64,000 bases of DNA. Origin: Lota lota (taxonomy: Eukaryota; Chordata; Actinopteri; Gadiformes; Lotidae). The DNA lies in assembly GCA_026745465.1 (NCBI GenBank), contig JACYXH010000278.1, forward strand, positions 642,478-706,477, in the 5' to 3' direction. Shown piece after piece: positions 25,353 through 63,667 of this stretch. The notes under the pieces are model-generated. The model saw nothing but the letters and a program-made list of their open reading frames with translations, was not told where the DNA came from and did not search any database. How positions within the stretch are numbered: the stretch's first letter is position 1; the number at the start of each line of letters is the position of its first letter. The position numbers and the translations under genes are program-made.

Positions 25353-25796
25353 TCAATGATGAGCTCGTCTCGGAAGGGGAAGAAAGGACTGACGGCTGAT
25401 GGAGCACTGCGCTGTTTGGTAGGCCACCCATATTTGATAACAGAGGTGAGTTTCTGCAGGGTTGCATCCTTTGCCGTGTTCCTCTCTCCTTAGTTCCTCC
25501 AGGCGGGCGGATGAGATGTGGCTGACCACCATCACGTCAAAGTAATTTTTCGAGTTCATGTGCTGAAAGGTGGATGTCCTGGGCACTCGTGACAGAGTGT
25601 CGGCCAGGTACATGTGTTTCCCTTTCTTGTAGATCAGGTCGATGTTGTATTTCTGCAACTGTAGCATCATACGTTGGAGTCGTGCTGGTGCTGTGGAGAT
25701 CGGCTTTCTTATGATTGTAACTAGGGGTTGGTGGTCAGTTTCTACAGTCACCGGCTTTCCATATATATAGTCATTGAATTTTGAACACGCAAACAC
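25353..25796 (-). pseudogene. RNase H of the Mag-like element (fragment)
   Basis: The 147-codon open frame holds the second half of a Ty3 RNase H: a KFNDYIYGK segment, the TDHQPL motif, and the C-terminal LADTLSR signature preceded by YKKGK. The first half (DASQHGLGA, YASR) lies in the preceding frame, so a frameshift at about 25790-25850 splits the domain. After about residue 90 the sequence shifts again into unrelated residues, marking a second frameshift near 25480. Confidence 0.85.
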
Positions 25797-27126
25797 AACT
25801 GCTAGGAGTTCCTTCTCTATTTGTGCGTAACGTGTCTGTCTGTGTCAGCGTCCGCGATGCGTAGGCAATTGGTCTGCCTTCTTGCAAGCATGCTGCGCCA
25901 AGTCCGTGTTGTGAAGCGTCGCAGGTGAGTGTGACTGGTCGATCTACGTTGTAATATGACAAGACAGGTGGGCTATATATGCATTTTTTCAAAGTGTCAT
26001 ATGCGTCCTGGTGCTGCTTCAGCCAGCACCACACTGTGTCTTTGAGTGTGAGCTGTCTTAGTGGAGCTGAAAGTTTACTGAAGTTCGGAATAAACTTCCC
26101 GAGATAGTTTATCATGCCAAGGAAGCGCTGGAGCGCTGTGACGTCCTCGGGGGCTGGCATTTTGGTGACTGCTTTGGTCTTGGATGGATCTGCTTTTAGG
26201 CCATCGCTGGTGAACACGTGACCGACATAACTGACCTCAGCCAGTCGGAATTTGCACTTGAGGGGGTTGAGTCTCAGATTCACCTGACGTGCACGGTCGA
26301 GCCCCTTCATCAGGTTTGCGTCATGCTCTGCTTCATTGCGGCCTCCGACGATGATGTCATCCACAATGATGGCACAGGGGTATCCAGCGAATATCTGCTC
26401 CATTGAGCGCTGGAACACCTCGCTGGCTGCATTTATTCCAAATGGCATCCTGAGGAATCTGTAACGGCCAAAAGGTGTGCTGAAAGTTGTTAGCAGCGAT
26501 GACTTACTGTCCAAGGAAATTTGCCAGAAAGAGCTCTTGGCATCCAGCACTGAATACACTGTTGCTTTTGACATTTGTGAGGCAACCTCCTCGACAGTAC
26601 GCATAGGGTAGTGGGGACGCTTCAATGCTATGTTGAGATCCCTGGGGTCTATGCAGATTCTTATGTCATCGGTTTGCTTTTTGTTTGTTGCCACCATGGA
26701 TGATACCCATTCAGTTGGTTCCAAAACGGGAGTGATGACGCCTAGATCTTTCATTCTTTCAAGCTCAGCTCTAACTCTGTCCTGCATGGCTACCGGAATG
26801 CGGCGTGCTGGACGGACGACGGGCTGTACATCTGGATCTAGTTTCATGGAGTATGTGACTCGTAGCTTACCAAGTTTGTCCTTGAATAGATCAGCATATT
26901 TCATGAAAATCTGGTGGCGCATGTTTGCATTGTGATTCACGCTGAGTTGATGAACTTCCTTGTTCAGTGTTACTAAATCCATGCGTATGCATGCTGGGAA
27001 GCCTAGCAGCGGCTGGACATTTCTCTCCACGATGTAGAACTGTAGTGCATATGGCTGGCCTGCCAGGTGACATGACAGTACCACTGAGCCCACAGTGTTA
27101 ATCTGATTTCCTCCATATGCCACCAA
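25771..27126 (-). pseudogene. Protease C-terminus and reverse transcriptase of the Mag-like element
   Basis: A 451-codon open frame. Residues 1-50 finish the aspartic protease (LLGFPACI). RT follows: the fingers region with ICIDPRDLN (about residue 160), palm motif A in YSVLDAKSSFWQI, motif B in PFGINAASE, and the catalytic IVDDI box (about residue 255), a variant of the usual Y/F-x-D-D. The thumb and connection contain GHVFTSDGLK and FLGMINYLGKFIP, then the start of RNase H with LTCDASQHGLGA. The frame is lost immediately after, at LTQTDT. The RT itself appears undisturbed. Confidence 0.9.
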
Positions 27127-30540: not shown

Positions 30541-31362
30541 GGCGGTCAAGGGACGTATTGGACCTAATTAAGGAAAGCTGGGAGGAGGGTCCAAGCGCCA
30601 GTAAGAATGAGATTGTTCAGGCAGAATTAAAATCTATGCTGGATATGGGGGTAATAGAAGAGTCGCACAGCGGATGGTCTAGTCCCATCGTGCTCGTTCG
30701 CAAGTCCGAAGGGTCCATTCGGTTCTGTGTTGAGTACCGCAAGGGGAATAGCGTGTCAAAGTTCGATGTGTATCCAATGCCACGGGTCGACAAACTCCTA
30801 GATCGGCAAGGCACGGCTGGTTTTTTTTACGACACTGGATTTAACCAAGGGCTACTGGTAGATTCCCTTGTTTCCAGAGTCTAAGGAAAAATCGGCCTTC
30901 TCTACTCCGTACGGTTCCAATTCATTCCAACCCAATTATTTTGGGTTGTTTGGAGCCCCTGCTACCTTCCAGAGTCTCATGGACCGAGTGCTGCGTCTGC
31001 ACGTTGGATATGCGGCTGCCTACATTGACGATGTCATTATTCATAGTGACACCTGGCAGCAGCACATCCAGCGGGTGGCGGCGATGCTAGAGTCACTGAG
31101 GCGGGCGGGGCTCACGACCAACCCAAGGAAGTGTGTGATTGGACGGAGGGAGGTACGGTATCTGGGGTACCGCTTGGGTGGCGGGCAGGTGCGCCCGCAG
31201 GTGGAGAAGAAAGAGGCGGTCGCGGCCTGTCCACGGCCTGAGACCAAAAAACTGGTGAGGGCGTTCCTGGGGCTGACAGGCTACTACAGCTACTTCTCGG
31301 AGCTGACCAGCCCCCTGACCGACATCACCCGAAAGGGTGCCTCAGATCAGAGCCAGGCGTAG
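30336..31362 (+). pseudogene. Reverse transcriptase of the Gmr1-like element
   Basis: The first frame (30336-30884) includes LVRKSEGSIRFCVEYRKGN, the fingers, and a damaged motif A region (FFYDTGFNQG). A stop and frameshift follow at about 30850-30884. The second frame (30868-31362) carries FGLFGAPATFQSLMDRVLR-type motif B (residues partly altered as NYFGLFGAPATFQSL), the catalytic AYIDDVIIHS box (about 31020-31050), RKCVIGRREVRYLGY and FLGLTGYYSYF. The frame then ends at a TAG at about 31360, before RNase H. Confidence 0.88.
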
Positions 31363-47656: not shown

Positions 47657-48224
47657 TGTTATGGTTACGAGAATAGGACCCAAACGCAAGACAAGGAAAC
47701 CAACAGGGTGCGGGTTGAAAAGGGGATTTATTGTCCGAAGGTACAGGCAAGGGCAAGGCAGGCGAGTAGTCCAGTAGGCGGTAGGCAGGCGGGGAGTCAG
47801 GCAGGCAGACGGACGTAGGCAGGCGGGTGGTCGGGCAGGCGAGGTTCAGTAACAAGGAAGGCAGGCAGGCAGGAACTAGGAACAGGAACGGGAACGAGGA
47901 ACAGGAACGAGAGCGGGAACAGAAACGGGAGCGGAACCCGTAACGGGAACAAGAACGGGAGTGGGACCCGAAAACAAAGAAGTGGCGGGGACGTAGTTAC
48001 CATGGGAGGTTTTACAACTACCGAACTAGCACTGGCTCTGTGGGGAGCCAGTGCTTAAGTACTGTGGGGAGTGATTGGTGAAGAGCTGCAGGTGAGGGGT
48101 AGACAGAAGGAGTGCACGTGGTGGCTAATTGACGGGAAGAGGTAAACAAAGAAGCACATGGTGAAGTGAGGCTGGGTGCCACTAGATGGCGGAGTTTGAC
48201 GGAAACAGAGAGGGTCACGTAACA
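47657..48224 (-). repeat. 3' LTR of element A (568 bp)
   Basis: On the minus strand it starts TGTTACGTGACC and ends CCATAACA. It carries a TATA-like GTACTTAAGC (plus 48053-48062), the 10-bp hairpin at 48028-48055, and a poly-A signal AATAAA (plus strand TTTATT near 47727). R/U5 is rich in CCTGCCTGCC and GTTCC(C/T) words. Confidence 0.93.
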
Positions 48225-49889: not shown

Positions 49890-50457
49890 TGTTATGGTTA
49901 CGAGTATAGGACCCAAACGCAAGACAAGGAAACCAACAGGGTGCGGGTTGAAAAGGGGATTTATTGTCCGAAGGTACAGGCAAGGGCAAGGCAGGCGAGT
50001 AGTCCAGTAGGCGGTAGGCAGGCGGGGAGTCAGGCAGGCAGACGGACGTAGGCAGGCGGGTGGTCGGGCAGGCGAGGTTCAGTAACAAGGAAGGCAGGCA
50101 GGCAGGAACTAGGAACAGGAACGGGAACGAGGAACAGGAACGAGAGCGGGAACAGAAACGGGAGCGGAACCCGTAACGGGAACAAGAACGGGAGTGGGAC
50201 CCGAAAACAAAGAAGTGGCGGGGACGTAGTTACCATGGGAGGTTTTACAACTACCGAACTAGCACTGGCTCTGTGGGGAGCCAGTGCTTAAGTACTGTGG
50301 GGAGTGATTGGTGAAGAGCTGCAGGTGAGGGGTAGACAGAAGGAGTGCACGTGGTGGCTAATTGACGGGAAGAGGCAAACAAAGAAGCACATGGTGAAGT
50401 GAGGCTGGGTGCCACTAGATGGCGGAGTTTGACGGAAACGGAGAGGGTCACGTAACA
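49890..50457 (-). repeat. 5' LTR of element A (568 bp)
   Basis: Identical to 47657-48224 except at three single bases (GAGTAT/GAGAAT, GGCAAAC/GGTAAAC, AACGGA/AACAGA). The hairpin is at 50261-50288. Confidence 0.93.
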
Positions 50458-51017: not shown

Positions 51018-51704
51018 AGACCCCAAGCCCACCACTAGCAACTCCTCTGATATCGTTGATGAGATTACTAGGCCTACAGAGGAGACTAGGCAGGTGGAAG
51101 GCAAGAAAAACAACGTTGCGACAAAACTTGACTGAGAACAAAATTTATCAAGAGGAAACAGGCCCACAGGATTAGATAGGTAGTTGTCAGCCCCAGCAAC
51201 AGGGAGAGGATCCCACTGTTGAAGACGTCTCTAAGAATGGGGAACATAAACAGGTACAGGTAGAAAAGGAAATGGTGAAAGGTAAAAAACAGGAGCAGAC
51301 AAGGTGACTGAACAGAAAAGGCCTGGCCTCAGGAACCAATCTGACCAGACTGCTATTGAAGTGGCTGAGTGTGTTGTGGAGGAAGGGGAAGATGATTTTC
51401 TGATGGATGAAGATTTTTCTCAAATGTCTGCAAAAAGAAAAATCATGAATGACAGAAAAGATAATGCAAAGTCAAAAAAGTCTTCTGAAGACACTACTCC
51501 CCCTCCCGATGTAGAGGAGACCTCTGATGAATCTGACAGTGGATCCATCGGTATGTCACAGGCTCAAGGGGATAAGTTCATTGGTTACTCCTTGACAAAA
51601 ATGAAGAGGTCTTGCACAACGTCAAATGAAGATCTCGAGCTTGGGGAAGAGGTGTTCACAGAGCAGTAAGTGTTCTGCCTGAGAAAGCTGGTTTTAAAGG
51701 TTGA
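51016..51704 (+). pseudogene. ORF1 C-terminal region of the Tx1 LINE
   Basis: Acidic, Ser/Asp-rich sequence (EETSDESDSGSIGMSQAQG; FLMDEDFSQMSAKRKIM) ending in GYSLTKMKRSCTTSN, the usual end of Tx1 ORF1. A frameshift lies near 51130-51300 and the annotated frame 51304-51669 ends EEVFTEQ. The remaining bases to 51704 are ORF1/ORF2 boundary sequence cut by the ERV. Confidence 0.75.
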
Positions 51705-51708
51705 AGCT

Positions 51709-52163
51709 TGTAGAAAAATAAAATGTACTGGGGCCTGGCAGGATACGCCTAGCCATGAGGCCCAGAACCAGGAACCATGACGCACAGAGCGCGCCCATGT
51801 TTGAAACAAAGGGCGTGTCCAACAACAGCGGAGGGACCAATCATGCCTCCCCTGTAACTGCCCAGTAACCAATCCTGGGCCCCCACACACGCCCAGGGCG
51901 GAGGCCCTGGGGACAAAGGAACCACGCACCAAAGGAATCTCGGGCTCCGGCGCTCCCAGGTCTCCCCCAGCACGCTCCCAGCTCTCGCTAGTTTTTTGTT
52001 GGTTTGTTACGGCTGGGGGCGGGGACCGGTACCGTTTGATATCTCAATCATTTACTGCATGTAATAACCACTCGTCTGTTAAATAAATGGTCTAAAGACC
52101 GACGGCTTTTCCGACTCTGAGTCCTCTCGCTTTAGTCCTTTTAGCCTCTATTTTTGGTCAACA
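51709..52163 (+). repeat. 5' LTR of the ERV (455 bp)
   Basis: TGTAGAAAAATAAAATG...GGTCAACA. Two CCAAT boxes (51837, 51869), no obvious TATA, poly-A signal AATAAA at 52082. The two LTRs differ at CCCTGG/CCCCGG and TACGGC/TACGTC only. Confidence 0.95.
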
Positions 52164-52166
52164 GAT

Positions 52167-52184
52167 TGGTGACCCCGACGTGAT
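52167..52184 (+). other. Primer-binding site for tRNA-Trp
   Basis: TGGTGACCCCGACGTGAT, three nt after the LTR, is the exact complement of the 3' end of vertebrate tRNA-Trp (ending ATCACGTCGGGGTCA plus CCA), as used by avian alpharetroviruses. Confidence 0.9.
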
Positions 52185-52414
52185 CTTTCCGAACTAAAGA
52201 ACACAAGTTGACTTGGAGGAAGGACGAGGACACCAAGAACCCGCCGCTGGTGCCAGGGACGGGCCCACCTGTCTCCCCGTGTATACCCAACAACAGTATA
52301 CCCAACAACAAAAGGATAAGCCGAAACCTGTTAACCGAGTGTCCGAATTGGCGTAACTTAGACCTAGGCCCATAGTCGGTGGAGACAGGGAGGACACGCT
52401 CCTATCGCCGGATG

Positions 52415-52420
52415 GTAAGT
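52415..52420 (+). promoter_or_regulatory. Candidate retroviral 5' splice donor
   Basis: CGGATG|GTAAGTTC fits the donor consensus GTAAGT exactly and sits in the leader between PBS and gag, where the subgenomic env transcript is normally spliced. Confidence 0.65.
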
Positions 52421-52461
52421 TCAGAAAATTGCATGACGGTTGTTATAGGCAGTATACACGT

Positions 52462-52844
52462 TCCGGAGAGCCGGACGGAACTATATAAAACTAAAACTGC
52501 GTAGGACGCGTTTTTGTAATTATAGAAGACAGTTGGACTGTCTTGGGGCCGTGCGTTGGACGCGATAAATGAACGGAACCCCGCCAAAATTACGCGATGG
52601 TCGCGAACTGTATTTTAGAAAACTGTGTTGACTGCGTCGGACGCGTTTTGTAATTATAGAAGACAGTTGGACTGTCTTGGGACCGTGCGTTGGACGCGAT
52701 AAATAAACGGATACTGCCAAAATTACGGGATGGTCGCGAACTGTATTTTGAACTGAATTACGCGATGGTCGCGAGCTGTATTGTTGAACTGATTTACGCG
52801 ATGGTCGCGCATTATTGTTAAACGGTGTTAACTGCGTTGGACGC
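52462..52844 (+). promoter_or_regulatory. Array of NGG-loop stem-loops in the ERV leader
   Basis: Eleven perfect or near-perfect hairpins with 3-nt loops ending in GG. Stem type 1 (GCGT/ACGC): 52499-52509 (loop AGG), 52553-52563, 52634-52644 (CGG), 52687-52697, 52834-52844. Stem type 2 (AAGACAGT/ACTGTCTT): 52526-52544 and 52660-52678. Stem type 3 (CGCGA/TCGCG): 52593-52605, 52726-52738 (one mismatch), 52761-52773, 52797-52809. Nine loops are TGG. An extra hairpin TCCGG-AGAG-CCGGA lies at 52462-52475. Two units of about 130 bp are tandem copies, but the third stem type recurs beyond them. Confidence 0.75.
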
Positions 52845-52917
52845 GTTTTGCATGTGCATTGTTGTGTTTTGTGACTGCACTAACGACTAATCACCCTTCC
52901 TTCCCACAAACAAGAGA

Positions 52918-55316
52918 ATGGCGTCTAGAAAAGAGTTAAAGATAGCAGCCAAGGCACAGAAATTAATGGTAGATAGGATCCTTACGTTCAGCCCAACCAA
53001 AACCGGGGAACCACCCAAGGTGTGGCTCCGTAGACACCGGGACTACAGAAGGGGATGGGAGAAACAGGGGTGGGTGGGAAAAGTCGCTCTAAATGGGGGG
53101 GACACCACCCGCTTAGAGGGAGAAGTAACAGCTGAACCCTATCGGCGTAGGAGGAAAAATCAAAAAGCCGGAGCAGGCCCAGTCGCCGTCGGCCTTACCG
53201 ACCCAGAGAAAAAGAGTACAAACAAGCGGCTGTTAGTAGTGGCTGCGTACGCCCGAGCCATAGGGGGAGGAAAACAGGCAAACGTCATGGCCCCGGTTGT
53301 AACCACCACAGCGGCCACGGCTTTGCCAGCAGGGACTCCTGTCCCTCCTGCCCCCGGCACAGTCTCTGCGGCTGCCCTCACTCTCCACTCCGCCCCTCCC
53401 CCCTCCGCAGGCCACCCCCCCCCCTTCCCCAAACCCTGCCCCCGCCCCCTCCCTCTATCCTGGCCCACCCCCGGCCTACCAGGCTCAACCACAGCTCGGA
53501 GCAGGCCCGGAACCAGGTTACTGTGACGTCTTCCCCTGCGGGGAGAAAAACCCCCCCTTATCGTCCCTCCCAACGCCCCACCCGCCCCCGTCGGCCCCAC
53601 CCCCAACACCGGGCCCAGGTAGGGACCCCGGAGGCCCCCCCAATGCAGGGGGGGTCTATCCCCTGATCCAGATCACCCACGCCTCCCCCTCCGACCCCGT
53701 GATGGTAGCGTGGCACGAACCCCGCCACCCCCTCAGCACCGAGACCTGGCCCACCCCTGTAGAACAGCACCGGCAGGTGGTTTTTGAAAGAAGCCCACCC
53801 CCCACCTCTGACGAGGATGAAGAGGAACACCCTAAACTCCGGGAGATCCGGACCAGGCGTGAAAGGAAGTCCCCGAAAGAACACAAACCAGGTCGTTCCG
53901 CCCTTCGCATCGCCAAACCCAGCCCGATGATCCGGGGACGCAGTGGTCCCTCAGCCACGGTACAGGCGCGGCCGCAGGCAAACGACGTGGCCGAGCCACT
54001 GAGAGGCCTCGGAGCCCCGCCCCCTCAACCCCCAAGCCCCGGGCCCTCACCCGCTGGCCATCAGAGTCCGGAACAGAGGAGGACTCCCCCACAGACGGAA
54101 CCAGCTATACGCCCCAGCCAATGAACCTCACCCCTGGGGGGGACTGGAGCTTCCGACAGCACCACGACTCCACCCCCCGGGGAAGAGGGGCCGGAAGGGG
54201 AAGCCCAGGGAAAAAAGAACAAGCCGAGGAGGAAGGGTCTTCCGAGGAGAACCCCAGAGCCCAGCCCCCAGAGAGACATCCCATGAGAACCAGATCGCGA
54301 AAAGAGCACGACCAGGACTGGTTGCGCAGCCCCGACCCCCTCCTACAGGCCCCGCTTATAGAGGCGGCAGGGGGCTTCCACTCGACCTACACCCCATGGT
54401 GCCACCGAGACATGACCAACCTCAAGGATAGGCTCCCCGACCCCCACGATGGTGGTGGGGGCTACATCCGAGCCTTGAAAAAAAAACAAACCACCGGAGA
54501 CCGCCTGGCTATGGGGGACGTCCGGGCCCTCCTCCAGTCCTCATCCCGGCCTCTGTGCGAAGAAGTGGACCGCAAGGCCGGAACAACCAGGATCGCCGAC
54601 AGGGAAGCCTTCGACCCCTTCCGGAGCGCCTGGTGGGGGGCCCTGAGAGAAGCCTGCCCCACTAGAGTGAGGGGGGCCCCCCTGGCGGGTCTGAGAAAGA
54701 AGCCCCGGGAGACGGCCTCCCAGTACATTAGGAGGGCCACTGACCTGTGGGAGGAGCACACCAACACCCTCACCGAGAGCTCCGACCTCGCCAGACTCAC
54801 CTTCCGGCGGGCAGTAGAAGAAGGCCTCTCCAGCGGGACAAGAGAGGCCCTGAGAAACGTCCTGGGGCTGGGACGGTTCAGCGGGCAGGAATGGCAGGAA
54901 GCCATCGCCCACCACTGTGAAAAGGAAGAAGAGGAGGAACGAGCGGAGGAAAAGACCAAGGAAGAACTAACCTTGCGGTTGCTGAAACTCCAGCTACAAA
55001 CAGCGCAAGAAGAGGCCACAAAGAACCGGAAAACACAGAAGACTCCCGCATCCATCATGATGACCTCGGCCGGGGAAACCCAGGCGGTGGGTATAGCACC
55101 ACCCCCGGAACCCCCAATGACCCAAGCAGCCCCGCAACAGGGCTTCCCATATCAATCCTACCCGCCACCCTACGGGGCGCCCCCAATGGCAGCACAACCT
55201 CAGCCCCAGTACCCATACCCTTACCCCTATCCCCGGCAATCCCCAGCCCCCCTGAGAGGGCGAGGCGGCCCCTGGTGGGGTTTCCCCAGAGTCGGACGAG
55301 GAAGAGGACCACCTCC
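52918..55316 (+). pseudogene. ERV gag, 5' part: matrix, proline-rich region and capsid
   Basis: The first ATG downstream of the leader (52918) starts MASRKELKIAAKAQK; position 2 is Ala, so the usual N-myristoylation glycine is absent. Matrix-like basic sequence continues to about residue 115, then Ala/Pro-rich DNA with C runs. The frame ends at 53526; sequence typical of the proline-rich p12-like region (VMVAWHEPRHPL, RSPPPTSDEDEEE) continues in frame 2 to about 54100. Frame 1 resumes (54121-55338) with capsid: WLRSPDPLLQAPLIEAAGG, WCHRDMTNLKDRLPDP, GALREACPTRVRG, ETASQYIRRATDLW and a charged helix of Glu/Arg. The Pro/Tyr-rich tail is interrupted at 55317 by a solo LTR. At least two frameshifts disable it. 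In an intact virus Gag would build the particle. Confidence 0.85.
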
Positions 55317-57060
55317 TGTTAGATCCGTCACTATGTGAAGCTTGTTGTCCTGTAACGGTTGTGAACAAGCCGGTGAGGAGATTCGCCCAGCCCCTAACTA
55401 CTGTATACCAGACACCTATCCCGCTTACTCCGACACCCCACCCCTGGGCATAACCCTGGCCAGGACCGTGGCTGCCGGCCGCGTCTGTGTAGTAGCTCTC
55501 CTCTGGGACCCGTGCACTTGGAAGTTTGCTGGGATTATTTAAGAGTCTGGAAAAATAACTCTAGGGATATGTTTCTTGAATGAGGACTAAGTAACCTCTT
55601 AGAATCACGATGCTTGTTCCGTCTCTACCGTTGTCCGAAAGAAGAGGGCGTTGTCCGATGAAAAATGGTTAAAATGATTTTATTAGTTGATAAGCTTGCA
55701 GATTACAGGGGGGAACCTTGCATAAAGCAAAAAATACCCTCAATAAAAAGTAAAAAGGGAAAAAATAGAATAATAAAAAGGATACTTTCTATAAGTAATT
55801 TAAAGAAAAGGTTAACACAACGATCACACATGTTGCTTACTTGAGATGAGGAGCCGTATTAGTTGCAGGGGTGAAAAGGGAAAAAATCCCTTTTTGGAAC
55901 ATGGCTGAAAAAGTTATATTAGTTTTTTCTGTCCGTAATTCTTTGGTGGGCCCACAGCTGTAAGCCTTCATAGCTTCTTAGGGCTAAGGGAGGAATCCTC
56001 TCTTCGGAGGGTGGGCGGTCAAGGCTAGCTTCTGGTAGAAATGCGCGGCTGATAGAAGTTTTGAGAAGAAACTCTCTTCTCCTATTTTCTGAAATCTTTC
56101 TAAGTCTTTTTAGTATTTCTTCTTCTCCGGACTTTAGGTGGCCGTCCGGCATGGCCGTCCGGCACGGAGCCGCCGTGGCTAGGAGTCCTCCTATTCCTAC
56201 CCCGGTCAGGCTGTTTTATAGAGCGTATGGCTCTGCCCATTTTATGCCCTTCTATGGAGCAGATATGGTTTTGCCCTTTTCATGCCCTTTATAGATTTAT
56301 TCGTTGTGCTGTCGTAACTTATTTATGCTGACCTCACCTATGCTATCCTCCATTTTGTCCGTTATATGAACCTCCATTTTGTCCTTACACGAACCGCAGC
56401 TGGTGTTTTTCTGCTGATGTCAGCTAATCTACTCGTTATTTTGGTGATCTTATCAGTACTCATCAAACCCTCACAGGCAAGGCCAACTTTCCCAAGTAAA
56501 CCAATTAAGTTATGTTCCAAACAATAACAACACCCCACGTATGCCATAATACATAAAACAGTAATTATCCTCAGAGACCCGTAAGTCACACCAGACCTGA
56601 ATGGTGAGCCCATGTACCCTTAGTTAACAGTGTTATACTATCTCTAGACATAGAATAGTTTGCACATGCCAACCGGGCTTACTAACATTGGATGCAGTAC
56701 ATGTACTTCTCGTATCATAAAGTGTTTCTTCATTTTATAAGATACTCCCAAGTGCTTCAGCATTGTAGCTAGTGGATTACTTATAGTATGTATGGTTACA
56801 CAGTATGACATACAGATGGGTATACAGTAAAACATACAATGTTCATTGGTTATTGGTTATAGCTTCCCATAGGGTTGCACAGTGTTATAGTAAAACATAC
56901 ATTGATGCATGACCAGTGTATTACTTTTAAGCGCGCCTATAGTTATGATAAAACAATGCTTAGGTTTATATAGAATGTGATTAATAAAGAGTAACATCCC
57001 TTACGTCCCATACCTTCTAATATATCTGGACACCGATGAATCAACATTACTTGACACTCC
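55313..57060 (-). mobile_element. Element C: 1740-bp solo LTR inserted in the ERV gag
   Basis: Bases 55317-57056 begin TGTTAGATCC and end ACTTGACA on the plus strand and are flanked by a perfect 4-bp TSD CTCC (55313-55316, 57057-57060). Removing the insert and one TSD copy keeps the gag frame open from capsid into the zinc knuckle, which confirms the boundaries. On the minus strand a TATA box (CTATAAAACAGCC, about plus 56210-56222) and a poly-A signal AATAAAATC (about plus 55677-55685) define U3-R-U5. A 1.7-kb LTR with a 4-bp TSD suggests a large ERV, perhaps foamy-like. No internal sequence remains. A 77-codon minus frame (56152-55919) lies after the TATA box; its role, if any, is unknown. 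Confidence 0.87.
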
Positions 57061-57223
57061 CCAACCAGGATGCCTGAGGTGTGGGGCTCTGGACCACTGG
57101 GTCCGGGAATGCCCCCACCCTGACAACCGGCCTCAACGACCCCAACCCCCGCCTCAGTCCCTCCAGGGCTTTCCCCCTCGCCCACAGAACGGACCGCCCG
57201 CCCTCGGAACCGGCCTCTACCCA
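57061..57223 (+). pseudogene. ERV gag, 3' part: nucleocapsid with one CCHC zinc knuckle
   Basis: CLRCGALDHWVRECPH at 57071-57118 is a C-x2-C-x4-H-x4-C knuckle, the single knuckle expected of gamma/epsilon-type nucleocapsids, which binds unpaired G-rich RNA during packaging. The frame continues through a Pro/Gln/Arg-rich stretch into protease without any stop codon. Confidence 0.87.
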
Positions 57224-58200
57224 TTGGCCGAATGGGACAGCGAGTGGGCCTCAGGGGGCCCAGGTGGAGAGGGTGTGGAAATACAGTGCGGCCCCGGAGT
57301 TCCCCTCATCACCGGCCAGGTAGGGGGACACCCCGTCCATCTCCTGGTGGACACCGGAGCAACCGTATCAACGATAGGGGACCTAAATCAAAATAAAAAA
57401 CTATCCGACCGCACCCTCAAAACTATGGGATTTGAAGGCAACCCCCAGACCCACCGATTCACCGTCCCCCTCCTCATCGAGATATTAGGCCACCGGGGCT
57501 ACCACCAGATCCTGTATACCTCCAAATGCCCCCACCCCCTCCTAGGACGAGACATCATGGGGACCCTCAAATGCACCATCCACTGCTCCACAGACGGAAT
57601 CACCATCTGCCCAGACCCCAAAGACCCCAACCATCTCATGGCCCTGCAGGCCCCTCCACCTCCCCAAGAGGCCAACATAGACATCTACTGGCTAAGGGAA
57701 GTAGCGCCAACTCCCGACAACCCCTCCATCCATGATATCTTCCGGGTATGGAAACCCTGGATAGATGCCACCGGGGGTTACTACCCGCCGCCCGACCAAC
57801 CCCACACTACCCTCAACGTGCTGAAGACCCCCGATGACCAGTTGCCAGCCAGCCTGTGGGCAACCGGCCCCTACGACATGGGACTAACCCCCCAGCATGA
57901 GATTCACATACCCCTGAAACCAGGAGCCAGCCCCGCCTGGATACCCCAATACCGATTGAAAAGGCCGCAGCGGACGGCATCACGAAAACAATCCAAGGAC
58001 TTAAGGAAGCCGGTGTGCTGATCCCCGCCACCGGGCCATGGAATACGCCCATCCTACCTGTGCTCAAGGCGGACGGAAGGACGTACCGTATGGCCCACGA
58101 CCTCCGAGAGATCGACACCCGAACTAATGGATCCCCTGAGAGGGTCCCCAACCCCCTGGTGGCCCTCCACGGAGTACACCCCGACCTGATAATGAGGTTG
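57224..58200 (+). pseudogene. ERV protease and truncated reverse transcriptase
   Basis: Protease: the active-site motif LLVDTGATVSTIG at about residues 42-54 and the C-terminal LLGRDIMG motif (about residue 106). After a linker, RT starts (LWATGPYDMGLTPQHEIHIP, IPQYRLKR). A 1-nt change at about 57960 shifts the frame; the next segment (LKEAGVLIPATGPWNTPILP, TYRMAHDLREID) is the RT fingers in another frame. The palm with the YxDD box, thumb and most of RNase H are absent, and the text jumps to the RNase H end at about 58186. Thus pol is non-functional by deletion, not only by point mutation. Confidence 0.87.
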
Positions 58201-58440
58201 ATGACCTCGATCCACCTCCCTAAGCAAGTGGCCATCATGAAGTGCGCCGGACACCACAAAACCCAGACCCCCGTTGCGGCCGGCAACCAGGCTGCCGACG
58301 AAGCGGCCGAACTAGCTGGAGGATACCACCCCATGTGTGTCCTCGACTGCGCAACAGTGCCCCACACTTCCCCCTGCCTCAAGGATATGCTCTCCAACCT
58401 CCATGACATGCAAGCACTCCTTTCTCCGTCTCAGTGGAGG
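58186..58440 (+). pseudogene. ERV RNase H end and integrase start (remnant)
   Basis: The segment LPKQVAIMKCAGHHKTQ and AAGNQAADEAAELAGG is the conserved final part of retroviral RNase H, including the catalytic Asp in NQAADEAA. It is followed by about 50 residues (LKDMLSNLHDMQALLSPSQW) that look like the N-terminal edge of integrase. The zinc-binding and catalytic domains of integrase are missing; another deletion ends the segment near 58437. Confidence 0.75.
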
Positions 58441-59291: not shown

Positions 59292-59746
59292 TGTAGAAAA
59301 ATAAAATGTACTGGGGCCTGGCAGGATACGCCTAGCCATGAGGCCCAGAACCAGGAACCATGACGCACAGAGCGCGCCCATGTTTGAAACAAAGGGCGTG
59401 TCCAACAACAGCGGAGGGACCAATCATGCCTCCCCTGTAACTGCCCAGTAACCAATCCTGGGCCCCCACACACGCCCAGGGCGGAGGCCCCGGGGACAAA
59501 GGAACCACGCACCAAAGGAATCTCGGGCTCCGGCGCTCCCAGGTCTCCCCCAGCACGCTCCCAGCTCTCGCTAGTTTTTTGTTGGTTTGTTACGTCTGGG
59601 GGCGGGGACCGGTACCGTTTGATATCTCAATCATTTACTGCATGTAATAACCACTCGTCTGTTAAATAAATGGTCTAAAGACCGACGGCTTTTCCGACTC
59701 TGAGTCCTCTCGCTTTAGTCCTTTTAGCCTCTATTTTTGGTCAACA
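59292..59746 (+). repeat. 3' LTR of the ERV (455 bp)
   Basis: Same length as the 5' LTR, with 2 base differences. Followed by the TSD AGCT. Confidence 0.95.
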
Positions 59747-59750
59747 AGCT

Positions 59751-60560
59751 CGGCTTGATGATGACTTGTAAAGTATACTTTCTATTGTTTCTTTTGCTTG
59801 TTTGTGTGCAGTGCTTCCTCCCCTCCATCTCATGTGTAATTTAAGTATCGGCACTTTAAACCTGAATGGGGCAAGGGATAGCCTAAAGAGGGCCTCCCTG
59901 TATGAATTGATGGACATCAAGAGGTTGGATGTACTTTCTATGCAGGAAACCCACAGCACAACAGACAATGAGATTGAATGGAAAAAGGAGTGGAGTGGTG
60001 ATGTGGTTTTATCCCATAAATCTAACAATAGTGGTGGGGTGGGTTTTCTTTTCTCTAAACAGTGCAAACCATGCTCTTATGAGGTGGATAGTCCAGTGGC
60101 AGGCCGATTAATCAGGATGAAGGCACAGTATGAAAATTGTATAATGGTTTTTATCAATATATACGCACCAAATAAGGGTGCTGAAAGAATATTGTTTTGG
60201 GATACCTTGAATGACATAATCAACAGTTGCAACAATAATGATTTTTTAGTTGTGGGAGGTGATTTTAACTGTACAGAGGATGACAAAATAGACAGGAATC
60301 ACTTAGAACCTCATCCTGCCTCTAAGAGTCGGCTAGTGAGGATGAGTACTTCCACTGATCTGACAGATGTCTGGAGAAGGTTTCACAGGAGACAGCGGCA
60401 GTACACCTGGGTACACATTGGAGAAAGTATATTATCCATGGCCAGGCTAGACAGGTTTTAATGTTTTAAGCATCATTTTAGTACTTTTAAGAGTTGTTGT
60501 ATAGTGCCTGTTGGTTTTACTGACCATTGTCTAGTGCAGTGTTCTTTTTTTATAAAGAAT
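59751..60560 (+). pseudogene. ORF2 of the Tx1 LINE: apurinic-type endonuclease
   Basis: The frame from 59802 carries the APE-like motifs in order: LSIGTLNLNGARD (metal/substrate Asn), SMQETHS (catalytic Glu), FINIYAPN, VVGGDFNCTEDDKIDRN (catalytic Asp/Asn), YTWVH and ARLDRF. The frame ends at 60461; the final TDHCLVQ motif (catalytic His) sits in a shifted frame at about 60519. This enzyme nicks the target in Tx1-clade LINEs. The true start may be the Met at about 59832, preceding CNLSIGT. Confidence 0.9.
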
Positions 60561-63169: not shown

Positions 63170-63667
63170 TTTGTTGTTATGAATACGGCAGAACTAGCGG
63201 ACCCAAATGCAAGACACAGAGCAGGCAGAGACGAACAAAGGGGGCCAAGGTATTTATTTGGCAGACAAGAGTTGTCAGGCAGGCAATGTTCGGCAACGGA
63301 GAGGCAGGCAGGCAGGCAGGGACTCGGCAACAGGCGGATGGTCAGGAAGGCAGAGGTTCGGCAACGGTAGGCAGGCAGGCAGAGTTCAGCATAAGCTGAA
63401 TGTTCAGGGACAGGAACGGGAGCAGGAACAGGAACAGGAACAGGAACTGGGGAGATTCTGAATGTCAAGGTGGGTACGAGGATACCGACGAGTGGGGTAA
63501 ACAACGAACTAGCACTGGCTGTGTGAAAAGCCAGTGCTTAAGTACTGTGGGGAATGATTGGCAATTGACTGCAGGTGTGGGTAATCAGAGGGAGCACGAG
63601 GGGTAATGGAGGCAGGGTGTCCCTAGGTGGCGGAAGTGGAAGGAACGGGAGAGGGTGTGACATTTGT
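63170..63667 (-). mobile_element. Element D: solo LTR related to element A (488 bp)
   Basis: Bases 63175-63662 run TGTTATGAATACG...GTGTGACA with a perfect TSD TTTGT (63170-63174, 63663-63667). It shares with the element A LTR the TGTTATG start, the purine-rich GGCAGGCAGGC and GGAACAGGAAC blocks, the hairpin at 63511-63538 with the CTTAAGTAC box, and the poly-A signal position (reverse TTTATT at about 63253). It lies inside ORF2; the LINE reading resumes after it. Confidence 0.9.

Follow-up and report, generated by a model that had tools for sequence, protein, structure and literature searches.

The leader of an endogenous retrovirus in the genome of Lota lota (assembly GCA_026745465.1, contig JACYXH010000278.1) carries eleven short hairpins that differ in their stems and close on almost the same loop, which raises the question of how such an array arose and whether it serves the viral RNA. 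The window analysed is a stretch of 64,000 nucleotides; coordinates are those of the window, and the features of the provirus and its leader given below lie on the + strand.

Perfect hairpins, defined as a 3-nt loop closed by at least 4 Watson-Crick pairs, were scanned in the region 52462-52860. Exactly ten were found, all with an NGG loop, and an eleventh has a mismatch. The stem GCGT/ACGC occurs in hairpins 1 (52499-52509, loop AGG), 3 (52553-52563, TGG), 5 (52634-52644, CGG), 7 (52687-52697, TGG) and 11 (52834-52844, TGG). The longer stem AAGACAGT/ACTGTCTT closes on TGG in hairpins 2 (52526-52544) and 6 (52660-52678). The stem CGCGA/TCGCG, again with TGG, forms hairpins 4 (52593-52605), 9 (52761-52773) and 10 (52797-52809); hairpin 8 (52726-52738) reads CGGGA-TGG-TCGCG and contains one G.G mismatch. 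Over the eleven hairpins the loop is thus TGG nine times, AGG once and CGG once.

In 2000 dinucleotide shuffles of 52462-52860, a mean of 1.6 triloop hairpins was obtained (maximum 7), and NGG hairpins averaged 0.09 with a maximum of 2. Outside the array, only 11 of the 301 triloop hairpins of the 64-kb window have an NGG loop, and the comparison with 10 out of 10 in the array was counted for the packaging reading set out below. Nine or more triloop hairpins were found only in the 399-nt stretches starting at 52401, 52451 and 52501 (grid step of 50). When G-U pairs were allowed, the leader contained 19 triloop stems of at least 4 pairs: 8 are non-NGG, and one of the 11 NGG stems (52433) lies outside the array. 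Two of the non-NGG stems, at 52628 and 52828, overlap hairpins 5 and 11 and would compete with them. None of 4227 Rfam covariance models reached its gathering score in the window; in 51700-53000 there was one sub-threshold match (E 4.2), outside the array. These counts bear out the eleven NGG-triloop hairpins, ten perfect and one mismatched, reported for this retroviral leader in a preliminary description. The extent that it gave, 52462-52844, is right for the hairpins from 52499 onwards; its first part, 52462-52475, is a different hairpin (TCCGG-AGAG-CCGGA). The linkers repeat the motif AACTG between 52495 and 52835, with seven occurrences in the array region and seven in the whole leader; AACTG could represent another single-stranded motif that is repeated.

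The leader belongs to a retroviral provirus with a single CCHC knuckle, as had been proposed. The 5' LTR (51709-52163, 455 nt, TG...CA) has AGCT directly before it and the 3' LTR (59292-59746) has AGCT directly after it, so that the provirus is flanked on both sides by a 4-bp target-site duplication. The two LTRs are identical at 453 of 455 positions, which suggests that the provirus is young. The primer-binding site (52167-52184), which has one match in the window, is presumably the complement of the 3' end of tRNA-Trp. The first open frame 3' of the leader (52918-53526) was taken as the start of gag; it is named by position, because the gag-side frames, searched unmended, matched no Pfam family and no solved structure. 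This frame stops at 53526, and the same frame is next open for at least 60 codons from 53863. The zinc knuckle (57071-57112, C-X2-C-X4-H-X4-C) was recognised by its motif and by Pfam zf-CCHC, at 19.2 bits slightly below the cut-off of 20.8. An open frame at 57224-58021 matched the retroviral protease family (Pfam RVP, 36.5 bits, cut-off 20.7); the solved structure closest to it in sequence, 3nr6, was deposited as protease p14 of a gag-pro-pol polyprotein; we take it to be the gammaretroviral protease of XMRV. No reverse transcriptase family match was found among the scanned frames of the provirus. The provirus is broken. Its LTR pair, short target duplication, primer site, protease and single CCHC knuckle together mark it, by sequence, as gammaretrovirus-like, a label that stops short of a genus because the gag-side frames and reverse transcriptase gave no family match.

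Two regions of the provirus were noted separately. About 1.6 kb (55339-56980), which separate the knuckle frame from the one that ends at 55338, contain no recognised retroviral domain and are possibly another element inserted in the provirus. At 57901-58300 the start of a reverse transcriptase, seen by eye, runs into a weak match to an RNase H end (E 0.12), and most of the reverse transcriptase is apparently missing there despite the near-identical LTRs. If this loss preceded insertion, the genome would have depended on functions supplied in trans.

A packaging signal of a gammaretrovirus would be expected downstream from the splice donor, in the part of the leader that is lost from spliced RNA. 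The sequence ATG/GTAAGT at 52412-52420, cut after ATG, is the predicted major splice donor and scored 10.36 bits with an approximate donor matrix, splicing itself being a prediction. Ten of the 3897 GT 9-mers on the + strand, itself included, score at least as high, and between 52000 and 52920 it is the sole strong donor-like site (10.4 bits versus 3.4 bits for the runner-up). It ends 78 nt 5' of hairpin 1, and hairpin 11 ends 73 nt 5' of the ATG at 52918. The array is therefore placed between the donor-like site and the gag-side ATG, which is the position of Psi, and RNA spliced at this donor would lack it. The ATG of the predicted donor forms its last three exon bases; spliced RNAs would carry this AUG upstream at the junction.

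We read the array as the packaging region (Psi) that follows the splice donor in a gammaretrovirus-like endogenous retrovirus, expanded into a series of short quasi-palindromic hairpins, and give this reading a probability of about 0.55, the evaluation resting on the internal evidence of one leader. Judged from its sequence, the array probably serves viral RNA packaging as a signal of unusual modularity. GG would be displayed on unspliced RNA by the hairpins, or by the copy-copy duplexes to which they can switch; offered at many sites, it would be caught by Gag through its single CCHC knuckle, and Gag would gather on genomic RNA rather than on its spliced form. Expansion of the array would be due to template switches during reverse transcription, selection retaining the pairing and the GG while the linkers drifted.

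The same part of the leader could instead control translation, as a barrier or an internal ribosome entry site that spares the genomic RNA ordinary scanning. In its favour, the leader contains eight AUGs from the primer site to the ATG at 52918; four of these sit within the CGCGA/CGGGA hairpins, and each of the eight opens a frame of 30 codons or fewer. However, 7 of the 11 hairpins keep NGG without containing an AUG, and a ribosome barrier has no need of a fixed loop; we regard this explanation as improbable.

The preliminary description had called the three stems unrelated, which is probably not the case to judge from their sequences. The GCGT and CGCGA stems share a GCG/CGC core: aligned on the loop, TGCGT-NGG-ACGCG, with a U.G outer pair, stands against CGCGA-TGG-TCGCG, the closing pair having changed from T-A to A-T. 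The centre of the AAGACAGT hairpin, GTTGGAC, is in turn common to the TGG-looped GCGT hairpins. Common descent is thus possible, and the eleven loops are not to be taken as eleven independent events. What had been said of the array as a whole, that the stems differ while pairing is kept and GG stays constant, withstood the comparison. Among the 11 hairpins, which make up 6 distinct rows, both sides have changed at 4 of the 5 pair positions, and pairing is held in 54 of 55 cells. No column is invariant except those of GG and of one G-C pair, GG being constant in 22 positions. Over the 6 distinct rows 96.7% of cells are paired, against a mean of 71.9% in shuffles (2 of 500 reached 96.7%) and at most 72.2% in slid registers, a percentage inflated because the hairpins were chosen for pairing. 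Either way plain copying falls short: if the stems are related, their pairs have changed on both sides with GG fixed; otherwise the loop has arisen by convergence.

These results bear on whether the array arose merely because one or two quasi-palindromes, present by chance, were copied. Units of 134 bp and 35 bp would then have been duplicated by template switching, palindrome correction would have kept the stems symmetrical, and the loops would be alike because they are copies. The tandem units are plain, and the shared GCG/CGC and GTTGGAC cores mean that independent hairpin origins may number only one or two. That two families should both have NGG loops by chance has a probability of about 0.0013 (11/301 squared), which is small but not negligible for a spot picked by eye, and stems could stay symmetrical in the absence of selection if template switching corrected the palindromes. 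Against this, 4 of the 5 stem pairs have changed on both sides and GG never varies, which makes copying alone a poor account; palindrome correction should sometimes flip the loop to CCN, and CCN occurs in none of the 10 perfect hairpins. We consider copying alone unlikely, although it deserves to be taken seriously, and the history of the copies themselves was examined on both sides of this question.

Two copies of the large tandem unit, 52496-52616 and 52631-52749, are 92.6% identical over 121 columns, and a separate 35-bp unit is present in 2.9 tandem copies at 52721-52823. The tandem units of the preliminary description are therefore real, although the large one measures 134-135 bp and not 130 bp, and the 35-bp unit has to be added. 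The large units differ at 9 of 121 counted positions and the LTRs at 2 of 455, which places most of the divergence of the array before insertion, while the virus lineage was replicating.

Varying columns were counted in hairpins and in their flanks, in tests that overlap and whose p values are uncorrected for their number; the flank counts are inflated where flanks extend beyond the copied unit or have been stacked across an indel. For the four CGCGA copies, aligned without gaps, 1 of 13 hairpin columns varies versus 10 of 17 flank columns (p 0.007). The copies at 52726, 52761 and 52797 gave 1/13 versus 7/14 (p 0.033) ungapped, the last two alone gave 0/13 versus 8/20 (p 0.012), and a gapped alignment of three CGCGA copies gave 1/13 versus 14/29 (p 0.015). 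This greater divergence of the flanks of the 35-bp copies counts against copying alone. The closest pair, at 52593 and 52726, showed the reverse, with the one change in the hairpin and none in the flank (1/13 versus 0/21, p 0.38). For the GCGT hairpins with short flanks, aligned ungapped, the values were 1/11 versus 3/6 for five copies (p 0.10) and 1/11 versus 3/11 for three (p 0.59); three copies aligned with long flanks gave 1/11 versus 13/25 (p 0.025). Longer flanks gave 1/13 versus 16/23 for four CGCGA copies and 1/11 versus 19/22 for five GCGT copies (both printed as p 0.000), values which were discounted since no gaps were placed and the flanks extend past the copied unit. Between the two large units, 2 of 54 hairpin positions and 7 of 67 other positions differ (p 0.30); the hairpins are not significantly spared, as copying would have it. 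Constraint on the hairpins relative to their flanks is suggestive, not strong.

The leader was also folded and compared with shuffled controls, as the preliminary description had proposed. Over its whole length the array folds with an energy 3.9 to 4.3 SD below shuffles, and the upstream leader showed no folding excess over shuffles; with pair spans limited to 25, 40 and 80 nt the excess of the array is modest, at 1.5, 1.8 and 2.1 SD. The hairpins are not predicted to dominate the fold. In the unconstrained leader 3 of the 11 (52499, 52593 and 52687) have a stem probability of about 0.5 or more, and 2 of the 11 when 52462-52850 is folded alone. Limiting pair span to 40, 80 and 150 nt allowed 7, 5 and 1 of the 11 hairpins to form; hairpins 3, 5, 8 and 11 were unformed even at 40 nt. 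Copy-copy duplexes are preferred over the hairpins in the predicted fold, and in those formed at hairpins 2 and 6 two of the three loop bases are paired, leaving the middle G unpaired in a G.G mismatch. This paired state, according to the folding model, could also be formed by two genomes between them.

Linkage of genome dimers would give the loops another role, as pairing partners and not as protein sites: the near-palindromes would open and pair with a copy on the second genome, UGG facing UGG as two wobbles around a G.G mismatch. For all 11 hairpins the two-strand duplex is predicted to be more stable than two hairpins (for example, -28.6 versus 2 x -8.8 kcal/mol), 10 of 11 loops begin with U or C, which can pair with the G at the third position, and several palindromic stem-loops are used by gammaretroviral leaders according to passages of PMC5874298. 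However, GG loops cannot kiss, a constant GG is inferior to a perfect palindrome, and the predicted dimerisation gain of the whole array (-11.2) is no better than the shuffle mean of -11.9, 16 of 30 shuffles being as low. Because of this last result dimerisation was lowered as the main role, which we now hold to be rather unlikely, and the dimerisation signal that the preliminary description had offered beside packaging found no backing in the dimer energy of the array.

The packaging reading draws on what is described for other viruses. The Psi and dimer linkage region of Moloney murine leukaemia virus (SL-A to SL-D) resembles the present array in being a leader hairpin region with palindromic stem-loops, and in having a single CCHC knuckle that takes an exposed guanosine of the leader in a pocket (passages of PMC7599994 and PMC5874298); here, binding by the knuckle is a proposal. 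In the same passages of PMC7599994, the nucleocapsid protein of that virus has no significant affinity for isolated hairpins and reads the UCUG linker instead. UCUG does not occur in the 733-nt leader, which has eleven NGG triloops where murine leukaemia virus has two GACG tetraloops and UCUG linkers. A GACG tetraloop register exists only as a weak alternative, at 52555-52566 and 52689-52700, with -0.5 kcal/mol compared with -3.8 kcal/mol for the NGG hairpin. In view of the missing UCUG linkers and robust GACG tetraloops, the array is proposed to work like Psi and is not filed as the murine leukaemia virus type. RD-114 also has several palindromic stem-loops in a gammaretroviral leader; it differs in having five of them, with two GACG tetraloops, and the passages of PMC5874298 that describe it mention no tandem one-loop array. 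The dimer linkage of HTLV-1 has a leader hairpin with a triloop, in a structure proposed in part of PMC516450, but there it is one hairpin with the loop CAG and not NGG. As for the number of sites, the HIV-1 leader dimer is described in part of PMC7395439 as having more than two dozen nucleocapsid sites.

Another likeness is to the dispersed packaging signals of MS2 and of hepatitis B virus (RGAG), where many stem-loops with varied stems and one common loop motif are read by the coat or core protein, according to passages of PMC6281560 and PMC7612645; those signals are spread over the genome and are read by capsid-forming proteins, whereas here there is one tandem array in the leader. As a tentative extension, which we think possible rather than likely, the array may represent a class of packaging signal composed of many interchangeable modules, any stem with one NGG triloop, amplified in tandem, the copy number determining how avidly a one-knuckle nucleocapsid binds, much as with dispersed coat-protein sites. 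If so, the shared-loop logic of multiple packaging signals would extend to retroviruses. The choice of the genome by a single-knuckle nucleocapsid is known in detail for few viruses, and eleven copies of the same loop on differing stems offer a natural series in which loop identity, stem and copy number can be weighed in packaging.

A protein of the host could likewise read the loops, for or against the virus; a small NGG loop resembles the Smaug (SAMD4) element CNGG(N) as given in part of PMC9893680. But NGG is preceded by T in 7 of the 11 hairpins, by A in the other 4 and by C in none, so that the CNGG loop of the Smaug recognition element was rejected, and recognition by a host protein seems very improbable.

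Relatives of the leader were sought in several collections. Among IMG/VR contigs a 15-mer from the long hairpin was found at 14 loci, none of which has a second hairpin family by motif count. The protease piece gave one pattern match and the pol piece five in the same contigs, none of them a relative, and the primer site gave no match. Pairs of GCGTNGGACGC occurred in at least 120 stretches and pairs of GCGATGGTCGC in 12. Among the 146 IMG/VR loci listed, two of the three hairpin families occur together in 6 and all three in none. Prokaryote genome contigs had no two hairpin families side by side. Protein searches gave no match for the first gag-side frame among 2364 candidates and none for the next long frame among the best 7995. 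In all, the searches of the viral, prokaryote and protein collections yielded no related leader.

The 132 loci with GCGTNGGACGC or GCGATGGTCGC pairs among the matches listed were rejected as relatives and taken as unrelated coding-type repeats, 6 of the 132 having been translated. Four translated GCGTNGGACGC loci have a repeat frame of the Ala-Ala-Trp/Arg-Asp type, and in each of the two translated GCGATGGTCGC loci one frame or more stays open throughout the displayed stretch of roughly 100 codons. Across the 132 loci listed, 363 of 369 GCGTNGGACGC spacings below 60 nt are divisible by 3, and 473 of 580 GCGTNGGACGC copies have G as their middle base. The GCGTNGGACGC loci listed carry 12-nt coding-type repeats, mostly GCGTGGGACGC.

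Such repeats bring up a last explanation, a coding repeat or else an element acting as DNA through palindromic binding sites. The stems are indeed palindromic and rich in CpG, and GCGTNGGACGC pairs do serve as 12-nt coding-type repeats in the viral collection. A coding repeat was rejected here, as the array units of 134-135 and 35 bp are not multiples of 3, which speaks against coding, and the upstream ATG frames are short; DNA palindromes would leave unexplained one fixed loop, in one orientation, between differing arms. We give this explanation hardly any weight.

In the literature, no open-licence PMC paper combined retrovirus, triloop, nucleocapsid, encapsidation and hairpin, and the titles and abstract beginnings among the open-licence matches listed described no leader of repeated NGG triloops. 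This is weak evidence that the form is new.

Further features were observed around the provirus. An endonuclease open frame (Exo_endo_phos, 59802-60461) starts just 3' of it. On its 5' side a direct repeat of 568 nt (47657-48224 and 49890-50457; copies 99.5% identical and 2233 nt apart) flanks a 30-bp minisatellite with long open frames, and a 77-nt stretch at 63505-63581 is related to this repeat (84%). A reverse-transcriptase open frame with RNase H domains is located at 25771-27126, and another reverse-transcriptase open frame lies on the opposite strand at 30868-31362.
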